A program made the position numbers and the translations under genes. The notes below the pieces were generated by a model. The model was not told the DNA's origin and ran no database searches. It saw only the letters and a list, made by a program, of their open reading frames with translations. From NCBI GenBank assembly GCA_002507545.1, contig DAVR01000022.1:1-64000 (forward strand): 64,000 bases of DNA, written 5' to 3'. How positions within the stretch are numbered: the first letter of the stretch is position 1; every line of letters starts with the position of its first letter. Below are positions 1 through 37,902 of the stretch, piece after piece. The stretch comes from Archaeoglobus sp. UBA230 (GTDB lineage Archaea > Halobacteriota > Archaeoglobi > Archaeoglobales > Archaeoglobaceae).

Positions 1-129
1 AGATTTCATGAAAGCTTAGACACAAAGTACTATCTCCAGACTCCTGAAGATGCCTTCTGGAGCAGGTTGCCGGTAGAGGTGAGGGTGGGTGTTGCTTCAA
101 AGCTTTTCGATGAGGTGTTGGGGGAATGA
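1..129 (+). CDS. C-terminal end of an unrecognised protein (partial)
   Basis: An open frame runs from the first base to a TGA at 127-129 and gives 42 residues, ending in a short helix-like stretch (about VGVASKLFDEVLGE). The start lies outside the window. The stop overlaps an ATG at 126 (ATGA) that begins the remnant ATPase frame downstream, which suggests the two were once translationally coupled. I do not recognise the family from this fragment. Confidence 0.45.
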   Translation, partial: RFHESLDTKYYLQTPEDAFWSRLPVEVRVGVASKLFDEVLGE

Positions 130-1360
130 GTAGGGTTTATAAGATCAAAAATTTCAGGACTATACATGTAGTATTTTCGCTGAAAAAGTAATTTACAAGT
201 TTATGCAAACTTCTAAAAGAGAATTATTTGAGAGTACAAGAATTGAAGTCGAACTTTCTGAAGATGACTTGAACTCCATACTAAGTCATCTGGTAGATTC
301 AGAAATAAAAGTAGGTATTGGCGTGACTAAAGACAGAGAGCTAATCATAATGGAAAAAAAGAAGAAGGAGAATGTTTTAAAGATTTACTCAAGAATTGAA
401 GACGAAGAGGATCGTGAAACAATTAATCGGATCCTCAGCGATAAAAAAATTTTGAAAAGATCAGTAATTCTAAGCATTCTAAGTGCAATTCTTGGTGGTA
501 TTGGGAAAAAGATTGTAGTTTTACCAGCAGAAAGATTGGCATTGGTTACATTGTATCGATATTTGGGTAAACGAGGTATCAAAATTGCAGATTTGATTTC
601 TGAAGAAGATTTCGAAGATGCTGATAGACTAAGGGACTTAATAAGAAACGTAATGTTCATTTCTTATAGGTTTCCGAAACCAATAAAGGATTTCATAAAC
701 TTTTTGGACAATTTGGATGAATTTTCCAAAAAATTCGAAAATAAAGAATCTATAGAAGAGAGGAAAGAGTTTGTATGGTTGTCTGAGCTTATCGAGAATG
801 AGATACTTGGAGGTAAGATAGTATTGGAAAGAAAGGAAGAAATAGCTCAGCCAATCTTGGAGTTCGAACTCGCGGATGGAAAACGCTTGGATTTACACAT
901 AACATCGACAGCCGTAAAAGAGTTGGCAGGATTGGTTTTGTATTTTAGATATTTAATTGATAAGAATGATTACCTAATAATAGATGAGCCCGAAATGAAC
1001 TTACACCCAGAAGCTCAGGTTAAATTACTCGAAATCATAACAATGGCGGTCAATAGAGGTGTAAGAGTTATTCTAACGACGCACAGCCCATACATTGTGG
1101 ACCACCTCATGAACCTGATGGAGGGGTACGACGTAAAGGACAAAATTGACGATGGAAAGTTGCGAGAGTACGCGTTTATGGGTTATAGAGAGGCGTTTAT
1201 ATCTCCGAACGATGTGGAAGTCTACTTTTTTACAGAGGATGGATACGTGAAGAGTATATTAGATGTTGAAGAGCGAATAATTGATTGGGAAACGTTTAGT
1301 AAAGTTTCAGATAAAATTAGCATAATCTATAATAAACTACTTGAACTTAAACGTATGTAA
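126..1360 (+). pseudogene. OLD/ABC-type ATPase missing its Walker A region
   Basis: The long open frame (203-1360, 385 aa) carries the C-terminal half of an AAA_21/OLD-like ATPase: a Walker B motif (LIIDEPEMNLHPEAQ) near residue 255 and a switch-histidine motif (TTHSPYIVDHL) near residue 295. No P-loop exists anywhere in it. A separate 21-codon frame at 126-191 reads like the normal N-terminus of such ATPases (VYKIKNFRTI, then FSLKK) and stops where the P-loop should follow. The simplest reading is an internal deletion with a frame change that removed the nucleotide-binding loop. A truncated product from ATG 203 could still be made, but it should not hydrolyse ATP normally. The nuclease-like gene 20 bases downstream is its likely former partner. 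Confidence 0.6.
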
Positions 1361-1380: not shown

Positions 1381-1947
1381 ATGCCACTCAATGACCTAGT
1401 AATAAATGGATTGAAACATGAAACAAGTCACAGTGAGAATAATAAAACCATTAGCTTAAGCCAGAAATCTGGTGAAATAATACTTTTCTTTGAAATCGAC
1501 AATGATATGTGCAAAACAAAAAATAGGATACTTGAATTTAAACAAAATGAATTGTCTTATATAATAGATAAAGGTGCAGTCTGTGATTTACTCATAGTTT
1601 ATTCCAAACAAAATTTAGAGTGTAAGCTGTTTTTGTTGGTTGAACTTAAAGGTGACACTGAGGAGCAAGTCAGAAAAGCTATTAGACAAATAATAGTAAC
1701 CTACAAACATTTGGAGTGTGAACTAAAACACAGGTTGGACAAAAACTCTTACAGCAAAATTAAGTGGATTGGCTTGATTCTTTCAGGAGGATGCTCGCCT
1801 AATCGATTCAAACAACCTTTAAAGGAGGAATCAAAAAAATTTGGCTATAGCACACCACCAATACCAATTTTACTGATTTCTGAGCAAAAAGCGGATGATA
1901 AAGTTGTAAGACGAAATGTTAATGGTTATCGTAGTAATTTAATGTAA
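1381..1947 (+). CDS. Putative PD-(D/E)XK-like nuclease partner of the ATPase
   Basis: The protein has 188 residues and no named family I can assign. Residues 66-91 show a predicted strand-turn-strand with an acidic residue (D69 in AVCDLLIVY) and E88-x-K90 in LLVELKG, followed by a helix. This is the layout of the PD-(D/E)XK nuclease core. A conserved-looking WIGLILSGG strand follows near residue 130. It sits 20 bases downstream of the damaged OLD/ABC-type ATPase in the same direction, as ATPase-nuclease defence pairs do. Nuclease activity is inferred from the motif spacing only. Confidence 0.5.
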   Translation: MPLNDLVINGLKHETSHSENNKTISLSQKSGEIILFFEIDNDMCKTKNRILEFKQNELSYIIDKGAVCDLLIVYSKQNLECKLFLLVELKGDTEEQVRKAIRQIIVTYKHLECELKHRLDKNSYSKIKWIGLILSGGCSPNRFKQPLKEESKKFGYSTPPIPILLISEQKADDKVVRRNVNGYRSNLM

Positions 1948-1977: not shown

Positions 1978-2247
1978 CTAATAAAACTCCTCAATCTCCT
2001 TTCTTTGACCAACTAACCTACAAGCCATAGCCCTCTGGGGGGTGAGAATGAACATCGCCAAGTATTCAGATTTCAGATCCTTCTTGTTGAGCTCTTCTGC
2101 AATCTTCAAAATGTTATAAAATGGACCGACCATCTCCAAGAAATCCTCAAATTTGATAGTAGCCGCATTTACCAGAAATTCAAGAATTTTTAGATCTTCT
2201 TTGCTTAATTCTGCTTTACTTGTTAGTTTCTCTTTTTTGCTTAGCAA
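1978..2247 (-). CDS. Small protein at the end of the hsdM-hsdS operon, possibly frameshifted
   Basis: This 89-residue frame starts at TTG 2247, with no in-frame ATG before a stop near 2268. It is mainly helical and acidic, with no recognised domain. Upstream, another frame reads GAA CAC CTT and on to ATC AAA (about 2285-2258) and would join this frame in register if one base were added to the A5 run at 2257-2261. The true gene may therefore be longer and broken by a one-base deletion. It lies downstream of hsdS and the 57-codon ORF on the same strand and is presumably their co-transcribed neighbour. Function unknown. Confidence 0.4.
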   Translation of the reverse strand: MLSKKEKLTSKAELSKEDLKILEFLVNAATIKFEDFLEMVGPFYNILKIAEELNKKDLKSEYLAMFILTPQRAMACRLVGQRKEIEEFY

Positions 2248-2283
2248 ATCGACATCTTTTTGATTTCATCGAAATTAAGGTGT

Positions 2284-2457
2284 TCATTGGTTTTCCTTTG
2301 CTAATCTTTCGTAGAATTTGCTCATTCTTATCGGGATACTTGAAGATATCGCTTTATTCAACTCTTCGATCGTTTTAGTTTTGAGAATAGCGCAAGGGAT
2401 TTTTATTTCTTCTTTTTCAAGCGGATATTCAACAATCCTAACCGATTTCTCCTTCAT
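2284..2457 (-). CDS. 57-residue protein translationally coupled to hsdS
   Basis: ATG 2457 overlaps the hsdS stop in an ATGA arrangement, and the frame stays open to TGA at 2284-2286. The product begins MKEKSVRIVEYPLEKEE and ends in a basic helix (FYERLAKENQ). There is no Cys, membrane segment or known motif. The stop-start overlap argues that it is translated by ribosomes finishing hsdS. It could be a small regulator or accessory factor of the operon, but nothing in the sequence identifies a function. Confidence 0.5.
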   Translation of the reverse strand: MKEKSVRIVEYPLEKEEIKIPCAILKTKTIEELNKAISSSIPIRMSKFYERLAKENQ

Positions 2458-3671
2458 AGTTTTTCTACTCGCAATCTCCCAAACACGAGTTGTGGGAGCA
2501 AGGTATCTCTGATTTTCTTTAATGTGAGGATTTGCTTCTGATTGAGGAGGATTTTCTGGAAGAGTGGTTCGACGAGGGAGTGGAAGCGTTGGAGGATTGG
2601 TTGTGGTGGGATTATAATGTCCATCAAGTTCAGCAGATTTATATTTAGTCCTGGAACGGCAGTATCTGTGCTCGCCACCTCTTTTGGAGAGTTTAGCTTT
2701 AAGTAGTGGTATATGTAAAATACCAACTCCTTGGGAGTATTTGGTGCTGAGTAAAACACTGTATCTATAGGGTAGTTTGGTTCCGCTATTAACTGAACCG
2801 TGCCGACATTGCCTTTCCTTCCAATTATAACGGTCGGACCTTTAACCAAATATTCACTGTGGTAACCAACTATACCACTTGAGCCAACTACAGGGTAAGG
2901 TCCAGGTTCTCTCTTTCTCTCAGGGAGACCTTTACCGTATTTGAATTCTATTATGCTGTTCAATTTCTTAACTTCCCACCCCTTCGGAATCTCCATATCC
3001 AGTTCCTCGCTGTAAACGAACTCTTCATCCTGAAAAGGCTCGAAATCGATGAACCAGCTCTTGAAAATTGCCATCGCCATCTTTTCTAAAATCTCGTTCT
3101 GCTTGCGTTTGTTCTCTATTAAATCGTCGAACCATGAGAGAACGGTTGCTATGCGGGTTTGTTCTTGTAGGGGTGGATATGGTATTTCCAACTGTACTAA
3201 AGCGTCTTTGGGCACACGTTGCCTTCCACTTGTACCAGTCATTGTATACTGCAATCCCTCTCTAATAGCTGGAAACTTAAAGAAATAGAACAGGTAAAGT
3301 AAATCTACCATATCGTCCTTTGGAAGGATTGAAAAGACTTCAGTCGTGGCTACCCACTTATAATTATTCCCTTTTGGAACAATACAGCTTTTTCCATGTT
3401 CAAATGATGGAGTTATCTTAGCTAATAGTAATGAGCCTGGAAAAACCTCAATTCCGCTTTTTACCTCATTTGGATTCTTCACTTCAAATTTTGGGTGAAG
3501 GCCATCTTCGGGGATATTTTCCATGCTAATGAATGCGACTGGCTCTTTGTTAGCATTTCTCGATTTTTTATTAATTTTAATAACCCTTCCGAGTTCTTTA
3601 ACCTCCCAATCCTTCGGTATCTCCCCGATCTCCGTTTTCTTGAATTCCGTTTCCCAGCGTAATACTACCAT
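2454..3671 (-). CDS. hsdS: Type I restriction-modification specificity subunit
   Basis: HsdS gives the sequence specificity of type I methylation complexes. The 405 residues form two similar halves, each a target-recognition domain followed by a conserved helix. Half one opens with IPKDWEVKELGRVI and ends with a helix containing LQEQTRIATVLSWFDDLI (near 165-185). Half two opens with IPKGWEVKKLNSII (near 232) and ends with a coiled helix near 375-400. Length is normal for the family. It starts 7 bases after the NTPase gene, and its stop overlaps the start of the 57-residue ORF. The two recognition domains differ, so a bipartite target site is expected. Confidence 0.93.
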   Translation of the reverse strand: MVVLRWETEFKKTEIGEIPKDWEVKELGRVIKINKKSRNANKEPVAFISMENIPEDGLHPKFEVKNPNEVKSGIEVFPGSLLLAKITPSFEHGKSCIVPKGNNYKWVATTEVFSILPKDDMVDLLYLFYFFKFPAIREGLQYTMTGTSGRQRVPKDALVQLEIPYPPLQEQTRIATVLSWFDDLIENKRKQNEILEKMAMAIFKSWFIDFEPFQDEEFVYSEELDMEIPKGWEVKKLNSIIEFKYGKGLPERKREPGPYPVVGSSGIVGYHSEYLVKGPTVIIGRKGNVGTVQLIAEPNYPIDTVFYSAPNTPKELVFYIYHYLKLNSPKEVASTDTAVPGLNINLLNLMDIIIPPQPILQRFHSLVEPLFQKILLNQKQILTLKKIRDTLLPQLVFGRLRVEKL

Positions 3672-3678
3672 TTTCTGT

Positions 3679-5967
3679 TCACTCCTTTAGAAATTCATTA
3701 AGATCTTTGAATAGTACTACGAGCTCCTCTTTCAAACTTTCTGGATCTTTTGTATATAGTATATGTAAACCTTCTGATGATCTCTCTTTTTTAGGTGAAA
3801 AGCAAACGATTCTGTGAGTTTTGGAATTATCTTTAATTTTGCTTTTAACACTCAGTACAGCACTCAATTGATTATAGATTATTATAATTTGACGGCTTAA
3901 GTCTGGTTTGAAAATCACTAAGGGGTTGAAGTTATTCAAAGCATTTCGAATTTGATTTGCAGATCCGCTAAATAATGAATTATTTTGTTGCAAATGTTGT
4001 ATTTGTAAATTCATGTGAGCATTCAGAGAAACCAACATCCGAGAAGTAATATTAGGTAAGTTCTGTAGCATTGTATTAGTGTGATTCTCAATCTGCTTTG
4101 TTCTATTTTCGATGTCTTCTCTTTTGTAAGGATAGGGTGGTTTCCGACTTACAAGGTTTAGGTATACAGGATAATTGGCATTAAACTGACTTAAAGTATC
4201 AAAACCCCAATTTTTGATTTGTTGAACGTATTTCACTGGTTCCCTCCAAAATTGACCTTCAGTCAGCTCTTCCTGTTTTTGTGCAATTCGAAATGCGTTA
4301 ATCAAAGCAAGGATATACTTTGCATAATTTTCGAAGTTATTTATGAATCTTTTTTCAAATTCTGCCAGCTCGTCAATTTTATCTGGAATTTCTGAAGGAA
4401 TTGTTCCCATATATTGATATGTCCTTATTGGCACAGCAACTCCTCTGATATTCACAGATGTTTCATTTTGGACATTGAAAGCTCCATGCCTGTACAAAAA
4501 TTCATTAAAATATCGAATGGCCTCATCTTCAACCCTATCTTTATCTGGATCGGTTATTTGGTATCCCGAATAACTTGAATATATGTTGTGAGCATGTTCG
4601 AAAAGTTTCCTTAGTATTGATTCATTCTCCAACCATTTTGATGGGTTGGGATTTATGTATTTACTCTCGAACAATACTGTTATTGCTTTGTGGAATCGAG
4701 CTTTTTTGATGTCCTCCTCTGGTAAATTGTCGAGTTTAATAATTGGTCGATTATCTTGATCGAAATCGGTAATTCTATCTTTAATAAATTTTATTAAATC
4801 GAAAAAGTCATTCCTTGCTTCAAAAGCTATGGCTCTCTTGAGTATTTCAAAGTTCTTGTCATCGATCTCCTTTATTTCTGTGATCTCATCGAAAAATCTG
4901 CTCAGATCTTCCCATAATGGACGGCATAAGAAATATTTTGATGTGAAGTATGTGTACTCTTTTGGCCTATAAATATCTTCCTTAGATTTTTCATCCCCAG
5001 ATTTCTTGCCTTCCTTAGACCTCTCACCAAAATCGTAAATCTCTTCTCCACCAATGAAAATAAAGATAGCGTCAGAAAGGGTAAATAGATTCTTAAAAAA
5101 CTTGAGAACCTCTATAACCAGATCAGGTTCTAATTTATCGAGTTCGTCAATTACATAAATAAGTTTTTTGCCATTCTCTTTAAACTTTCTATGTAATTGC
5201 TCCAAATCAAATTCTAAATTTCCAATGCTGCTATCGAATTCATATAACTCCTCAGTTTTCTCTATATCTTCCTTTAGTTTTTTGAAATCTATTTTTTTCT
5301 TGTACCATAAATTTAAGGTAAATGGAAGAGGGAACGCAAGAATTAGTGGAAGTATTTTATTTAGATAGTCCCATGGTGTTAACGGTATAAATTGAAAAGT
5401 TACTGCAACAGTCCACGAAATCAAAAATATCATAATTTTTACATTTTTTTCATCAAGCAAAATTTCGTACATTTTTTCTTCCATTATCTGTTGTGATAAT
5501 TCTTGTTTACTCTGATAACCTTCTAACAACTTGAATTCTTTTGCAACTGCTTTTTTATACAGTTTTGTAACTTCCTCTTTAATATCTCCAGGCAATTTTA
5601 AGCCTTTTGTACTTGAGTAGAGTCTTCTTATTAAATTCTCGATAATTTTTCTTGGATGGATTTTTGACTCTTCTGATTCATCCATTTCAGCTTCAAGCTG
5701 AGCAGCATTTAGCAAAACTATTATTATATTTTCATCCCCTTTTTTTGCCTCCCATAATGCTTTGTAAACAAGGGATGTTTTTCCAACCCCCCTGTATCCA
5801 CTTATCAATATTGCGCCACTATTTCGTCTCAAAATCTCGTTAACTAATAATCTAAGCTCTTTATCTCGGCCAACAAAATAACCTTGAACTTGCCCTTTGT
5901 TTGTTGGATGGTTAATATTTATATCCCAATCTTTTTTCAGTACTATTCTCATCTTTGTTTGATTCAC
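3679..5967 (-). CDS. P-loop NTPase with internal membrane helices (KAP/STAND-like)
   Basis: The 762-residue protein has a Walker A motif at 57-65 (GYRGVGKTS), two hydrophobic segments at about 176-196 and 203-221 inserted between the Walker motifs, and a Walker B motif at about 269-280 (IYVIDELDKLE). A long helical C-terminal region without recognised motifs follows. P-loop NTPases with membrane helices inside the NTPase domain are typical of KAP-like proteins, often linked to phage exclusion. The start ATG overlaps the hepT stop (ATGA), and hsdS follows after 7 bases, so it is embedded in the modification operon. It lacks helicase and nuclease motifs and is not an HsdR. A sensor or membrane-anchored effector role is inferred. 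Confidence 0.75.
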   Translation of the reverse strand: MNQTKMRIVLKKDWDININHPTNKGQVQGYFVGRDKELRLLVNEILRRNSGAILISGYRGVGKTSLVYKALWEAKKGDENIIIVLLNAAQLEAEMDESEESKIHPRKIIENLIRRLYSSTKGLKLPGDIKEEVTKLYKKAVAKEFKLLEGYQSKQELSQQIMEEKMYEILLDEKNVKIMIFLISWTVAVTFQFIPLTPWDYLNKILPLILAFPLPFTLNLWYKKKIDFKKLKEDIEKTEELYEFDSSIGNLEFDLEQLHRKFKENGKKLIYVIDELDKLEPDLVIEVLKFFKNLFTLSDAIFIFIGGEEIYDFGERSKEGKKSGDEKSKEDIYRPKEYTYFTSKYFLCRPLWEDLSRFFDEITEIKEIDDKNFEILKRAIAFEARNDFFDLIKFIKDRITDFDQDNRPIIKLDNLPEEDIKKARFHKAITVLFESKYINPNPSKWLENESILRKLFEHAHNIYSSYSGYQITDPDKDRVEDEAIRYFNEFLYRHGAFNVQNETSVNIRGVAVPIRTYQYMGTIPSEIPDKIDELAEFEKRFINNFENYAKYILALINAFRIAQKQEELTEGQFWREPVKYVQQIKNWGFDTLSQFNANYPVYLNLVSRKPPYPYKREDIENRTKQIENHTNTMLQNLPNITSRMLVSLNAHMNLQIQHLQQNNSLFSGSANQIRNALNNFNPLVIFKPDLSRQIIIIYNQLSAVLSVKSKIKDNSKTHRIVCFSPKKERSSEGLHILYTKDPESLKEELVVLFKDLNEFLKE

Positions 5968-6332
5968 AGAGATTCCTCCTCTTTAGATTCTAATTCTCCC
6001 ATCATTTTTCTTAGAACATTCTTGAGTTCTGGCAACTGCTCCCTTATTATTACCCATATAATTTCGAGATCTACAACGAAATAGCCATGAATAACAACAT
6101 TCCTCAAACCAACAACTCTATTCCACGGGATTTCTGGATATTTCTCTCTTATCTCCTCAGGGATATTTCTCGCGGCCTCGCCAATTATCTCCAGATTCCT
6201 CAAAACAGCATCAACCACAATATCCTTTTCCATAAAATCATTCAAGTCTTCTACAGACTCTGTGTATCTTTCGATTTTCTCGATAGCTTCGAGCATATCC
6301 TGAATAAAAAGTTCAGGACTCCGCTTAGACAT
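5964..6332 (-). CDS. hepT: HEPN-domain (DUF86) RNase toxin HepT
   Basis: HepT toxins are HEPN ribonucleases. Counting from ATG 6332, the 122-residue protein shows the RX4HXY motif at R77, H82 and Y84 (LRNVVIHGYF), which holds the RNase residues and the tyrosine that MntA AMPylates in studied systems. I chose ATG 6332 over 6350 because it overlaps the end of mntA by only 8 bases and begins with the usual DUF86 N-terminus. mntA precedes it, as expected for the pair, and the NTPase gene overlaps its stop. The motif is intact, so the toxin should be active unless neutralised. Confidence 0.88.
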   Translation of the reverse strand: MSKRSPELFIQDMLEAIEKIERYTESVEDLNDFMEKDIVVDAVLRNLEIIGEAARNIPEEIREKYPEIPWNRVVGLRNVVIHGYFVVDLEIIWVIIREQLPELKNVLRKMMGELESKEEESL

Positions 6333-6615
6333 ACACGATCTCCTTCTCAATAGACCTCCAGAATGCTGGTTTGCTCATAACTCCCTTTTTGGTCAGCAAA
6401 TCAACCTTTACTCCAAGTAAATCTTCGAGGAACTCTTTCAAATCCACAATCTCCCAACCTACAGGCTCGCTAAATTCTACAATTACATCAATATCGTTTA
6501 CTTTTTTCTCTCTCCTTGTAACAGAACCAAACACTCCTATTTCTCTAACTTTAAATCTCTCTTTAAGCAAATTCTCGTTCTCCTTTATTCTCTTTATCAC
6601 CTCCTCAAGCTCCAT
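6325..6615 (-). CDS. mntA: MNT-domain nucleotidyltransferase antitoxin MntA
   Basis: MntA antitoxins add AMP to a tyrosine of HepT. The 96 residues match a minimal nucleotidyltransferase: G30-S31 (VFGSVTRREKK), the metal-binding pair D41-x-D43 (NDIDVIVEF), and a likely third acidic residue at D72 (VKVDLLT). The gene begins 3 bases after hsdM ends and overlaps hepT, so toxin and antitoxin would be made together with the methyltransferase. The cassette sits inside a type I modification operon between hsdM and hsdS, which is unusual. Confidence 0.88.
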   Translation of the reverse strand: MELEEVIKRIKENENLLKERFKVREIGVFGSVTRREKKVNDIDVIVEFSEPVGWEIVDLKEFLEDLLGVKVDLLTKKGVMSKPAFWRSIEKEIVYV

Positions 6616-6618
6616 AAC

Positions 6619-8214
6619 CTACACCTTATATCCTAATGATTTTATAACTTCTTTAACTTTTTCTGTTAGTTTCTCTTCTTCTTTCAACAACCGTGAAAGT
6701 TCTTCGCTGTAAGTCCTCATCTTCTCATCAAAGCTCCTTTCATCATCGAAATCGAGCTTAACTCCAACATATCTTCCGGGAGTGAGAACGTAACCGTTTT
6801 TCGCTATCTCGTCAATTGTTGCAACCTTGGCAAATCCGATCTCATTGATTTCATCCAGTTTTCCTTCCTCAAAGAGCCTGAATTTCTCCACAACTTTTGA
6901 GATGTGCTCGTCTTTCATCACATTCTGCCTTCTTGAAATTGGCTCAAAGAGATCTTTGGCATTTACGAACAGCACTCTCCTTTTCATGTGTTCTGACTTC
7001 TCTTTTCTTACAAACCAAAGTGATACTGGTAGAGATACATTGTAAAAGAGCTTTGGCGGGCAGGCAACTATTCCATAGACTAGATCAGCTTCAATAATTG
7101 CCTTCCTTATCTCTCCTTCAACCCCTCCAGCAGATAATGCTCCGTTTGCCATCACAAAGCCCGCTTTTCCATTTGGAGCGAGATGATAAATGAAGTGTAG
7201 GATCCACATGTAGTTTGCGTTGTTGTTCGGTGGAACTGGAACTCTTACCCCGTTAATCCTCAATCTCGGATCGTCTGGCTTTATCCTATCCGCTCCCCAC
7301 TCGCTATCGTTGAAGGGCGGATTGGAAGTTACGAAATCAAATCTCATATCATAGAACTTATCGTCGTGGTAGCTATCTCCAACCTTTATTTCTCCTTCAA
7401 CACCTCTGATAACGAGGTTCATCTTCGTGAGCTTCCAAGCCATCTGATCCGAATCCTGCCCGTAGATCTGCAGGCTGAATTTATCAATCCCCTCTCTTTC
7501 AAGCTTCTCTATTGCTGAAACAAAGAAACCTCCGCTTCCACATCCAGGATCAAACATCCTTCCCCCTCTAATATCGAGAACTTCAACTATGAGTTTTGTA
7601 AGCGAACGGGGAGTATAGAACTTGCCACCCCTCTTGCCTTCAAGCTCTGTGAACTTTCCAAGGAAATACTCGTAAATTCTACCGAATATATCGCTGGCTT
7701 TGTGATCATACCCAAAATCTATCTTTGAGAAGAGGTTTATCAGGAAGGAGATGTCGTATTGATCCAAATTTGAGCTTGTATAGACCTTTGGAATAACATC
7801 TCTTAGCTGTTTAGGATATCTATTTTCAAGAATCTCAATTGCATTCTCTATGATCTCAGCTATGTTTGATTGATTTGCATTTTTAACAAGGTAATTCCAT
7901 CTTGCTTTTTCTGGGATGTACAAAACTCCTGCTTCGAGGTAGTAGTCTTCGTCTTCCAAAGCACGCTCTCTTGTCTCCTCGTCATCTAAGTAATACTCGC
8001 TATTTTCATCTGCAAACAGTTTCTTCAGCTCTTCCCTTCTTTCATTGAATGCGTAAGTTAGATATCTGAGAAATATCAGCCCAAGAACAATGTATTTGTA
8101 TTGGTGCACCTCTACTTTTTTTCTAAGTTTATCAGCAGCCCTCCAGAGTTGGTTTTCGAATTCAGGGGTAAGCTCACGAGTGCCGATATCAACAAAGTTG
8201 TCGAGTGTAGCCAT
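6619..8214 (-). CDS. hsdM: Type I restriction-modification DNA methyltransferase subunit
   Basis: HsdM transfers methyl groups from S-adenosylmethionine to adenine in the site chosen by HsdS. The 531 residues comprise the N-terminal helical HsdM domain (about 15-165), the SAM-binding motif DPGCGSGGF at 222-230, and the N6-adenine catalytic motif NPPF at 298-301, then a C-terminal coiled helix (about 490-525) for HsdS contact. Length and motifs are complete. It is the first gene of the minus-strand operon and is divergent from the EVE gene across a 65-base AT-rich promoter region. No hsdR is visible, so it may act as a solitary modification unit or with an unlinked HsdR. Confidence 0.93.
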   Translation of the reverse strand: MATLDNFVDIGTRELTPEFENQLWRAADKLRKKVEVHQYKYIVLGLIFLRYLTYAFNERREELKKLFADENSEYYLDDEETRERALEDEDYYLEAGVLYIPEKARWNYLVKNANQSNIAEIIENAIEILENRYPKQLRDVIPKVYTSSNLDQYDISFLINLFSKIDFGYDHKASDIFGRIYEYFLGKFTELEGKRGGKFYTPRSLTKLIVEVLDIRGGRMFDPGCGSGGFFVSAIEKLEREGIDKFSLQIYGQDSDQMAWKLTKMNLVIRGVEGEIKVGDSYHDDKFYDMRFDFVTSNPPFNDSEWGADRIKPDDPRLRINGVRVPVPPNNNANYMWILHFIYHLAPNGKAGFVMANGALSAGGVEGEIRKAIIEADLVYGIVACPPKLFYNVSLPVSLWFVRKEKSEHMKRRVLFVNAKDLFEPISRRQNVMKDEHISKVVEKFRLFEEGKLDEINEIGFAKVATIDEIAKNGYVLTPGRYVGVKLDFDDERSFDEKMRTYSEELSRLLKEEEKLTEKVKEVIKSLGYKV

Positions 8215-8279
8215 ACTGAATCATTTTATTTTGCTAATGTTTTTAACTTTGTTTGTTTTAATTATTGATAGGTGGTTTA

Positions 8280-8720
8280 ATGGCTTACTGGCTCTGCATC
8301 ACAACCGAGGAGAACTGGAAGGTTATAAAGGAGAAGAATATCTGGGGAGTTCCTGAGAGGCACAAGAATACAATAGTAAAGGTAAAGCCAGGAGATAAGC
8401 TTTTGATTTACGTAAAACAGGAAAAGATAGGCGATGAAACTAAACCTTCAAGGATAGTGGCTGTTTATGAAGCAGCATCAGAGGTGTTCAAAGATTCATC
8501 CAGAATCTTCAAAACGCCAAGGGGTATGGGCAACGAGACCTTTCCCCTCAGAATCAAGCTCAAACCCATTAAAATCTTCGAAAAACCTGTCGAGTTCAAA
8601 CCTCTTGTTCCTAAACTGAAGTTCATCACAAACAAAAGGAAGTGGAGCGGGCATCTAATGGGTAAGGCGATGAGGGATATTCCTGAGGAAGATTACAGAT
8701 TGATTACAAGAGAGGAATGA
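8280..8720 (+). CDS. EVE-domain protein
   Basis: EVE domains are PUA-like folds that bind modified bases in DNA or RNA and often accompany restriction and defence genes. The 146 residues start with the typical [13 protein letters not shown] and continue with the conserved GVPERHKN and [12 protein letters not shown] stretches. A long C-terminal strand region ends at [17 protein letters not shown] 8280 was chosen over 8265 because AGGTGG precedes it and the family begins with the strand starting at AYW. It is divergent from hsdM and overlaps the next gene by 4 bases. A role in sensing modified DNA next to the methylase is inferred. Confidence 0.85.
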
Positions 8721-9805: not shown

Positions 9806-10699
9806 TCATGATAGGATCGGAAACTTATCAACGATCTTTTTGTATTCTTTATCTGCTGATTTAATCTTATTGAGATAGTGTGCTGAACCTACTGTTGCAG
9901 GCCTTCTCTCTTGAATAAAATCTGCTACAGATTCAGGAACGTCGTTCTCTATTATCATGAAGTTAAAATGCCATTTTCTGATTGTTTCAGCATTTACTCT
10001 CCCATGCATCAATCCTTTTTGGATACTCTTATATCCCTGATTGACCTTAGCCTTCTTTAGTTCCTCTACAAACTCAGCAGGGAAGTAAAGCCAATAACCC
10101 TTCTTAGCTCCTTTGGTCAAGTGAGTTATTGGGTATCTTGCAATGTTATCCACAATTACAACCTTCTCAAGATCGAAGGATTTCAGAGCATCATATACAT
10201 GCTTCAATCTTGCACCGCTAAAAACAAGCATCTTGAAAATCGTTCTGTAAATCGGTTTTTTGCCCCTTAGGTTCTCATAAGCTTCCTGAAGTTCTTTGTT
10301 GGTTATGTAGATCTCCTGAGCTTTTGCAGTTGGTATTACTATCTTCTTTCTCCATTTATCTATCGAATATCCATTTATCTTCTCAACATCTCTATCTTCC
10401 AGAAAGTTCAGGAAGTTTCTGAGAGCTAACGCTAATCCCTTCTTAATCTCTATATTTTCCAGATCAAACGGTAAATAAACCTCAAGCTTATCTTCATTCC
10501 TATCCAGAACGCTCATATAGTCCATTGCAGTTTTTTCCGTTAATTTCTCCTGCCTAACTCTACTCATCAACCAGTTTTTGAACTCCTCCCTGAATTGACT
10601 GTAAATTTCTTTAATACTTATCATATTTTTGTTAGATATTTGTTGTAATCTTGTTATATCGTCAAAGGACTGTTCTCCTTCTTCCTTAAGCTGCCTCAC
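9806..10699 (-). CDS. Archaeal tyrosine integrase, SSV-type arrangement
   Basis: The protein inserts and excises the element at a tRNA 3' end. In the 297 residues the recombinase residues are visible: R164 (FSGARLKHV), a lysine region near 196-200, R241-K-W-H244 (TIRKWHFNFM) and the nucleophile Y275 (GSAHYLNKI). The N-terminal half is a helical SAM-like DNA-binding domain. GTG 10699 is the first plausible start and lies within the tRNA-Val 3' fragment, so the attachment site overlaps the 5' end of the gene, as in SSV-type elements that split their integrase on integration. This copy appears nearly complete, perhaps short of N-terminal codons that continued across the attachment site. Confidence 0.85.
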   Translation of the reverse strand: MRQLKEEGEQSFDDITRLQQISNKNMISIKEIYSQFREEFKNWLMSRVRQEKLTEKTAMDYMSVLDRNEDKLEVYLPFDLENIEIKKGLALALRNFLNFLEDRDVEKINGYSIDKWRKKIVIPTAKAQEIYITNKELQEAYENLRGKKPIYRTIFKMLVFSGARLKHVYDALKSFDLEKVVIVDNIARYPITHLTKGAKKGYWLYFPAEFVEELKKAKVNQGYKSIQKGLMHGRVNAETIRKWHFNFMIIENDVPESVADFIQERRPATVGSAHYLNKIKSADKEYKKIVDKFPILS

Positions 10700-37827: not shown

Positions 37828-37902
37828 GGGCCCGTAGCTTAGCCAGGTCAGAGCGCCCGGCTCATAACCGGGCGGTCGAGGGTTCGAATCCCTCCGGGCC
37901 CA
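37828..37902 (+). tRNA. tRNA with CAU anticodon (elongator Met or Ile2)
   Basis: A full cloverleaf fits. The acceptor is GGGCCCG (37828-37834) pairing with CGGGCCC (37895-37901), followed by discriminator A. The D arm has GCTTAGCCAGGTCAGAGC. The anticodon stem is CCCGG/CCGGG around the loop CTCATAA (anticodon CAT), and the T arm is GAGGG-TTCGAAT-CCCTC. The pair 29:41 is C:G, so the GGG/CCC anticodon stem of initiators is absent, and the first pair is G:C. It is therefore elongator tRNA-Met or tRNA-Ile2, the substrate of TiaS. CCA is not encoded. No intron is seen in 75 bases. Confidence 0.93.

Follow-up and report, generated by a model that had tools for sequence, protein, structure and literature searches.

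A 64,000-nucleotide stretch of the Archaeoglobus sp. UBA230 genome (contig DAVR01000022.1, our C42:1-64000, in an assembly of 50 contigs; this whole stretch is the window, and positions are counted along it) carries a type I restriction-modification (R-M) operon in which a HepT/MntA toxin-antitoxin pair and a KAP-family P-loop NTPase are encoded between hsdM and hsdS. We read this locus, with moderate confidence, as a complete archaeal type I R-M system whose operon contains the toxin-antitoxin and KAP genes as embedded cargo, probably serving as back-up layers of immunity. Judged from sequence, the embedding is recurrent and has moved as a block, and the apparent absence of hsdR is an assembly artifact. 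A false lead, that of a defense system lacking hsdR, is replaced by a testable case of layered immunity.

The operon and the small open reading frames (ORFs) behind it are listed from the hsdM end, with protein lengths in amino acids (aa).
6619 to 8214, minus strand: hsdM, type I N6-adenine DNA methyltransferase subunit, 531 aa (PF02384, 3.5e-104; PF12161, 8.4e-23)
6325 to 6615, minus strand: mntA, minimal nucleotidyltransferase (MNT) antitoxin, 96 aa (PF01909, 6.2e-10; PADLOC PDC-S09, 3.3e-23)
5964 to 6350, minus strand: hepT, HEPN ribonuclease (RNase) toxin, 128 aa from a TTG start (PF01934, 6.6e-31; RX4HXY motif)
3679 to 5967, minus strand: P-loop NTPase of the KAP family, 762 aa, hydrophobic insert between the Walker A and B motifs (PF07693, 9.4e-11)
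2454 to 3671, minus strand: hsdS, type I specificity subunit with two target-recognition stretches, 405 aa (PF01420, 2.4e-29)
2284 to 2457, minus strand: 57-aa ORF without a family (ORF list; Pfam and PADLOC scans)
1978 to 2247, minus strand: 89-aa ORF with a TTG start, without a Pfam or PADLOC family (ORF list)

The ORF coordinates confirm the tightly packed order hsdM-mntA-hepT-NTPase-hsdS, followed by the 57- and 89-aa ORFs, that a first-pass annotation of this DNA had proposed. Three bases separate hsdM from mntA and seven separate the NTPase gene from hsdS; hepT overlaps the NTPase gene by 4 bases, as hsdS does the 57-aa ORF, and the 89-aa ORF lies 36 bases further on. The overlap between mntA and hepT is 26 bases if counted from the hepT TTG and 8 bases from an inner ATG at 6332, which would give a protein of 122 aa and is the start that matches relatives. 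No Pfam family was matched by the 57-aa ORF, for which PADLOC gives a weak match at 0.012 only.

Pfam assigns the encoded proteins to N6_Mtase and HsdM_N, NTP_transf_2, HepT-like, KAP_NTPase, and Methylase_S, the last in two PF01420 stretches of HsdS that represent the two target-recognition domains of a type I specificity subunit. HsdM contains the motifs DPGCGSG and NPPF, the HepT motif RNVVIHGY has the form RX4HXY, and the Walker A of the NTPase reads GYRGVGKT. The PF01934 toxin and PF01909 antitoxin genes adjoin with the antitoxin gene first, which is the class I arrangement of such pairs. The published class I motifs are RX4HXY in HepT and GSX10DXD in MntA (PMC7641770; papers are cited by PubMed Central [PMC] identifier). 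MntA in the window has GSX9DXD instead, one residue short, a form common to 4 of the 10 aligned MntA rows. By its motif, this protein would fall outside strict class I HepT/MntA membership; the reading that it works like a class I antitoxin is little affected, because GS and DXD are kept. The motifs of the initial description stand, with this small departure in MntA.

That description had also emphasized the lack of hsdR, which is true for the letters of the window but not for the genome. A check of the remaining contigs identified one HsdR: the single HSDR_N match of the genome is on contig C31, in an ORF of 1,025 aa at C31:864-3941 with HSDR_N, SWI2/SNF2, and T1RH-like_C domains and the motifs PD..EFK, GSGKS, DEAH, and TATP. 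The one HsdS and the one full HsdM of the genome are those of the window; a second N6_Mtase match, on C17, is weak. The left edge of the window is base 1 of C42 and thus a contig end, and it lies inside a multicopy insertion sequence (IS). The features at this break, on both contigs, are as follows.
1 to 166, plus strand: end of the multicopy IS (transposase C terminus and terminal repeat), where the contig breaks (sequence reading, recurrence)
167 to 180, no strand: 14-base target duplication that recurs at the start of C31 (flank comparison of IS ends)
203 to 1360, plus strand: later part of a PD-T4-4_A-like ATPase gene interrupted by the IS (PDLC04033 positions 101-447)
1381 to 1947, plus strand: 188-aa ORF that follows the ATPase part and converges on the hsd operon (no Pfam or PADLOC match above the cut-off)
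L002:15-311 (start of C31), minus strand: earlier part of the PD-T4-4_A-like ATPase gene (PDLC04033 positions 1-91)

The IS breaks the assembly, since its right and left ends both recur at contig ends across the genome. To pair these ends, we compared the flanks of 8 right and 6 left ends (48 pairs), leaving out one of the nine right-end matches (L182), which lacks the exact end string. Three pairs share 14 or 15 bases, and the remaining 45 share at most 2. The C42-C31 pair shares 14 bases and is the best pairing for both ends, with the next best sharing 2. Because this 14-base flank coincides with an ATPase gene split between the two contigs, we interpret C31 and C42 as the two sides of one IS insertion. 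Laid side by side, the contigs place hsdR on the hsdM strand, approximately 3 kb plus the IS beyond hsdS. Between the two genes are the 57- and 89-aa ORFs, the 188-aa ORF and the split ATPase gene (both on the opposite strand), a 72-aa ORF, and the IS. The linked HsdR has the nuclease and superfamily 2 translocase domains of a type I enzyme in silico. An orphan modification operon was a candidate explanation that we rejected, given the single HsdR on C31 and the IS duplication joining C31 to C42.

IS ends were seen at the ends of contigs C6, C7, C9, C11, C12, C25, and C28 of this genome (G000), and the same IS lies at the ends of C31, C35, C37, C38, C42, C43, and C46. Duplications of 14 to 15 bases re-pair C35 with C37, C43 with C46, and C31 with C42, and could readily be used to order more of this assembly.

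An uninterrupted version of the operon was found in another archaeon. Scanning our contig collection for the NTPase with exact-peptide patterns, which detect close relatives only, returned one relative (L119; JALTZZ010000048.1), a contig of an archaeal metagenome-assembled genome. Its genes are all codirectional in the order hsdM-95aa-mntA-hepT-KAP-hsdS-OLD-hsdR, with neighbors separated or overlapping by 9 bases at most, and the OLD-like gene encodes an ATPase/TOPRIM protein. The order hsdM-mntA-hepT-KAP-hsdS, which the first-pass annotation had proposed to search for, accordingly recurs in a distant archaeon. By tblastn, the L119 proteins are 83% (HsdM), 67% (MntA), 73% (HepT), 77% (KAP), 43% (HsdS), and 80% (HsdR) identical to those of the Archaeoglobus genome. 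A housekeeping-type protein of the L119 contig is 43% identical to that of the Archaeoglobus genome and at best 50% identical to those in other families of the phylum. Since the operon proteins (67 to 83%, with HsdS at 43%) are set against 43% for the housekeeping-type protein, the R-M block including its cargo has moved between far-apart lineages, with hsdS diverging in the meantime, as is usual for specificity subunits. The 95-aa ORF of L119 (L119:9042-9329, between hsdM and mntA) is hydrophobic, has no Pfam match, and is absent from the window; letters similar to it remain between hsdM and mntA in a further locus, L118.

The junction between hsdM and mntA is more widespread than the whole block. 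mntA adjoins hsdM or its remains in five genomes, represented by the window, L119, L109, L118, and L102, of which the first two have an intact hsdM. L109 has an hsdM with a large internal deletion followed after 3 bases by mntA and by a hepT cut by the contig end. L118 consists of a decayed hsdM, the remnant resembling the 95-aa ORF, mntA, a broken hepT, four other genes, and an hsdS fragment, with an HTH/M78 protein and a DUF4411 protein encoded among the genes after hepT. In L102, an 18-residue match to the HsdM C terminus precedes the pair's antitoxin gene as a remnant (score of 57, with 0 of 1,000 shuffles as high). The first-pass annotation had named two signs of a chance cassette insertion, namely, a linked hsdR just outside the window and a toxin-antitoxin pair found only in this genome. 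We found the former but not the latter, given the four further genomes.

In a tree of 30 MntA proteins, that of the window belongs to a group of 7 rows (support of 94/75, below star level), 5 of which adjoin hsdM; the other two are L099, which is a further copy carried by the L118 genome, and L100, which begins near a contig end. Over the whole tree, the R-M-linked label is weakly clustered, with the 12 linked rows requiring 7 label changes, at least 5 of them on starred branches, and 30 of 500 shuffles as low. The slots differ too, with MNT/HEPN genes between hsdM and hsdS in L097 and between hsdS and hsdR in L112, L126, and L127, so the simplest reading is that R-M operons captured the pair several separate times, gains and losses being indistinguishable. 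The L112 embedding (L112:1073-9021) is a separate one in another type I operon, with mntA-hepT between hsdS and an hsdR that is read in two frames.

To place these loci among type I operons of the phylum, we collected HsdM relatives at an E value of ≤1e-60, for which 84 matches are listed in 72 of 294 genomes, own included. Removing the gene of the window and counting two fragments in G024 as one gives 82 loci (L109 and L119 are outside these counts), 12 of which have no HsdS found, partly because contigs end. The other 70 have HsdS downstream on the hsdM strand. Slot ORFs were defined mechanically (at least 75 aa, same strand, within 12 kb), and by this definition 39 of the 70 loci have cargo of at least one ORF between hsdM and hsdS. 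HsdR follows HsdS within reach in 59 loci, 38 of them with an ORF between hsdS and hsdR. MNT or HEPN genes lie within the operon in 5 of the 70 (L084, L097, L112, L126, and L127); the MNT/HEPN pair of L175 is encoded upstream on the opposite strand and is excluded. Nine ORFs from the hsdM-hsdS slot were compared with Pfam, and seven have a match (YhcG three times, PIN_12, ORF6N, AlbA_2, and Fic), leaving two without one. Searches for defense genes in this phylum would do well to include the slot between hsdM and hsdS.

In KAP NTPases, the P-loop domain is interrupted by two (or four) membrane segments. The NTPase of the window matches PF07693 at 41.9 bits (cut-off of 20), and PADLOC gives a weak match to PifA (3.7e-4). 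Two membrane helices had been proposed between its Walker motifs; by hydropathy in a 19-residue window, one segment at approximately 176 to 198 clearly passes 1.5, but the second stretch stays under that value. Residues after approximately 310 match no Pfam family, and a structure predicted from the two-row alignment is unusable (mean predicted local distance difference test score of 39.3). Relatives of this protein are rare: 2 of 294 genomes of the phylum have one, namely, its own and G273, with a weak match to residues 8 to 88, and a two-row profile finds 1 of 59 genomes in the class, its own. No relatives were found on plasmids; phages and viral and metagenome collections were outside the searches. 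The PF07693 family as a whole matches in 124 of 294 genomes of the phylum, many of them weakly.

If the locus is a complete R-M system with back-up cargo, HsdMSR would form the first layer by modifying host DNA and cutting unmodified invading DNA, and MntA would silence HepT by adding AMP to the tyrosine of RX4HXY, which is Y90 if HepT is numbered from the TTG and Y84 if numbered from the ATG. Infection or an anti-restriction protein could act as the trigger, through which the antitoxin or ATP would be lost and the R-M complex inhibited. Freed HepT would then cleave RNA and halt growth, an abortive second layer of defense comparable to PrrC in EcoprrI. Such a PrrC-like second-line role is likely for the embedded cargo. 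The KAP NTPase would most likely constitute a further abortive or sensing layer.

Several observations weigh against this interpretation. A conserved position is not proof of coupling, and the system is known from its genes. The MntA motif is one residue short. As the opposite-strand cassette and the IS part hsdR from hsdS, transcription of hsdR is probably independent of the other operon genes. A KAP gene beside HepT/MntA in a type I operon is known from two loci only, and other cargo replaces KAP in L118, so that in that lineage KAP seems interchangeable with other genes and not tied to the pair. Finally, an Hsd gene detected by profile is near only 3 of the 20 HepT/MntA loci fetched from relatives, from which it follows that the pair also exists without R-M.

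These points bear on a second explanation, which we regard as a serious possibility but short of probable: the gap between hsdM and hsdS is a permissive landing site, HepT/MntA is an addiction cassette that maintains itself, and KAP is a defense gene in its own right, with both carried along by a mobile R-M operon and neither coupled functionally to the R-M enzyme. The very different genes held by this slot in other loci are what such a site would collect, HepT matches occur in 29 of the 60 nearest genomes (own included) and mostly without nearby Hsd genes at the fetched loci, and L118 has replaced the KAP gene. However, five genomes retain the mntA-hsdM junction, and hsdM-mntA-hepT-KAP-hsdS is found in two distant genomes with genes that overlap or nearly touch. 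That the pair outlived the decay or deletion of hsdM in L118, L109, and L102 fits coupling and hitchhiking alike.

An unlikely but more specific scheme would make mntA-hepT-KAP a three-gene guardian module, in which KAP senses infection or R-M inhibition and lifts the MntA block on HepT. If true, this would be a new guardian architecture, with sensor, antitoxin, and RNase as separate proteins that have traveled with the R-M operon between distant archaea. It is very improbable that the R-M operon is nearing loss and that its cargo consists of remnants without present function. The IS inside the neighboring ATPase gene would fit such decay, as would hsdM genes that are decayed, deleted, or remnant beside mntA (L118, L109, and L102) or decayed at another locus (L079), but the frames of hsdM, hsdS, hsdR, hepT, mntA, and the NTPase gene are open, and the motifs sought are present. 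Least credible is the distinct hsdR-less system of the first-pass annotation, with methylation status or NTPase sensing steering an RNase effector instead of DNA cleavage: no HsdR is encoded in the window, and an opposite-strand cassette and an IS do separate hsdR from hsdS, but the genome's single HsdR, which has its domains and motifs, is linked, and the L119 operon includes hsdR.

The flank upstream of hsdM holds two further genes. An EVE-domain protein is encoded divergently at 8265 to 8720 on the plus strand, 50 bases from the hsdM start (PF01878, 4.5e-23); EVE domains bind modified bases (PMC7641849), and this gene may belong to the same island as the hsd operon. An archaeal phage integrase gene lies at 9806 to 10699 on the minus strand, approximately 1.6 kb upstream of hsdM (PF16795, 1.6e-46), and the island could represent an integrated element. 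A single tRNA was found in the window, far away at 37828 to 37902.

Several known systems resemble parts of the locus. The phage-exclusion protein PifA is a KAP NTPase, and the NTPase described here resembles this family in its PF07693 match over the cut-off and its hydrophobic insert between the Walker motifs. MntA matches profiles of PDC-S09 (best, 3.3e-23), a candidate found by "guilt-by-embedding" (PADLOC; PMC12988326), and is itself embedded in a defense operon between hsdM and hsdS. Unlike PDC-S09, which is a single-gene candidate by definition, the mntA gene here belongs to a pair and is accompanied by KAP. In enteropathogenic Escherichia coli, a type I system carries the toxin-antitoxin pair DarTG2 between its hsdS and hsdR genes, along with the repressor gene RptR, and the island protects against phages (PMC12255303). 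The DarTG2 toxin acts by DNA ADP-ribosylation and occupies a different slot, in contrast to HepT between hsdM and hsdS. Silencing of HepT by MntA through AMPylation is described with examples from Shewanella and Thermococcus (PMC7641770). The pair in the window shares with class I HepT/MntA its PF01934 and PF01909 families, its antitoxin-first order, and RX4HXY in the toxin, and differs in its GSX9DXD motif and in lying within an R-M operon with a third gene.

The model for the arrangement is PrrC/EcoprrI, in which a type I R-M locus contains the gene of a HEPN anticodon nuclease (PMC3710099, PMC12707154). R-M linkage of at least 16 HEPN clades was described in 2013 (PMC3710099), HEPN RNases have been placed as a second line behind R-M (PMC3710099, PMC12707154), and "R-M guardians" are reviewed in PMC12707154. 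Embedding of toxin-antitoxin or HEPN genes in type I operons is therefore already known, and KAP is the new variation; our searches of open-license PMC full text found no description of a KAP gene, or of mntA-hepT-KAP, in a type I operon. As in PrrC/EcoprrI, the complete type I operon includes a gene for a HEPN RNase, in L119 as one codirectional run, and the gene set features an NTPase. In PrrC, the HEPN domain is fused to an ABC ATPase, whereas here HepT is a single-domain protein of 128 aa paired with MntA, its gene lies between hsdM and hsdS, and the NTPase is a KAP protein. Should the pair indeed act as guardian of the R-M enzyme, it would be the equivalent of PrrC in an archaeon, one whose safety catch is AMPylation.

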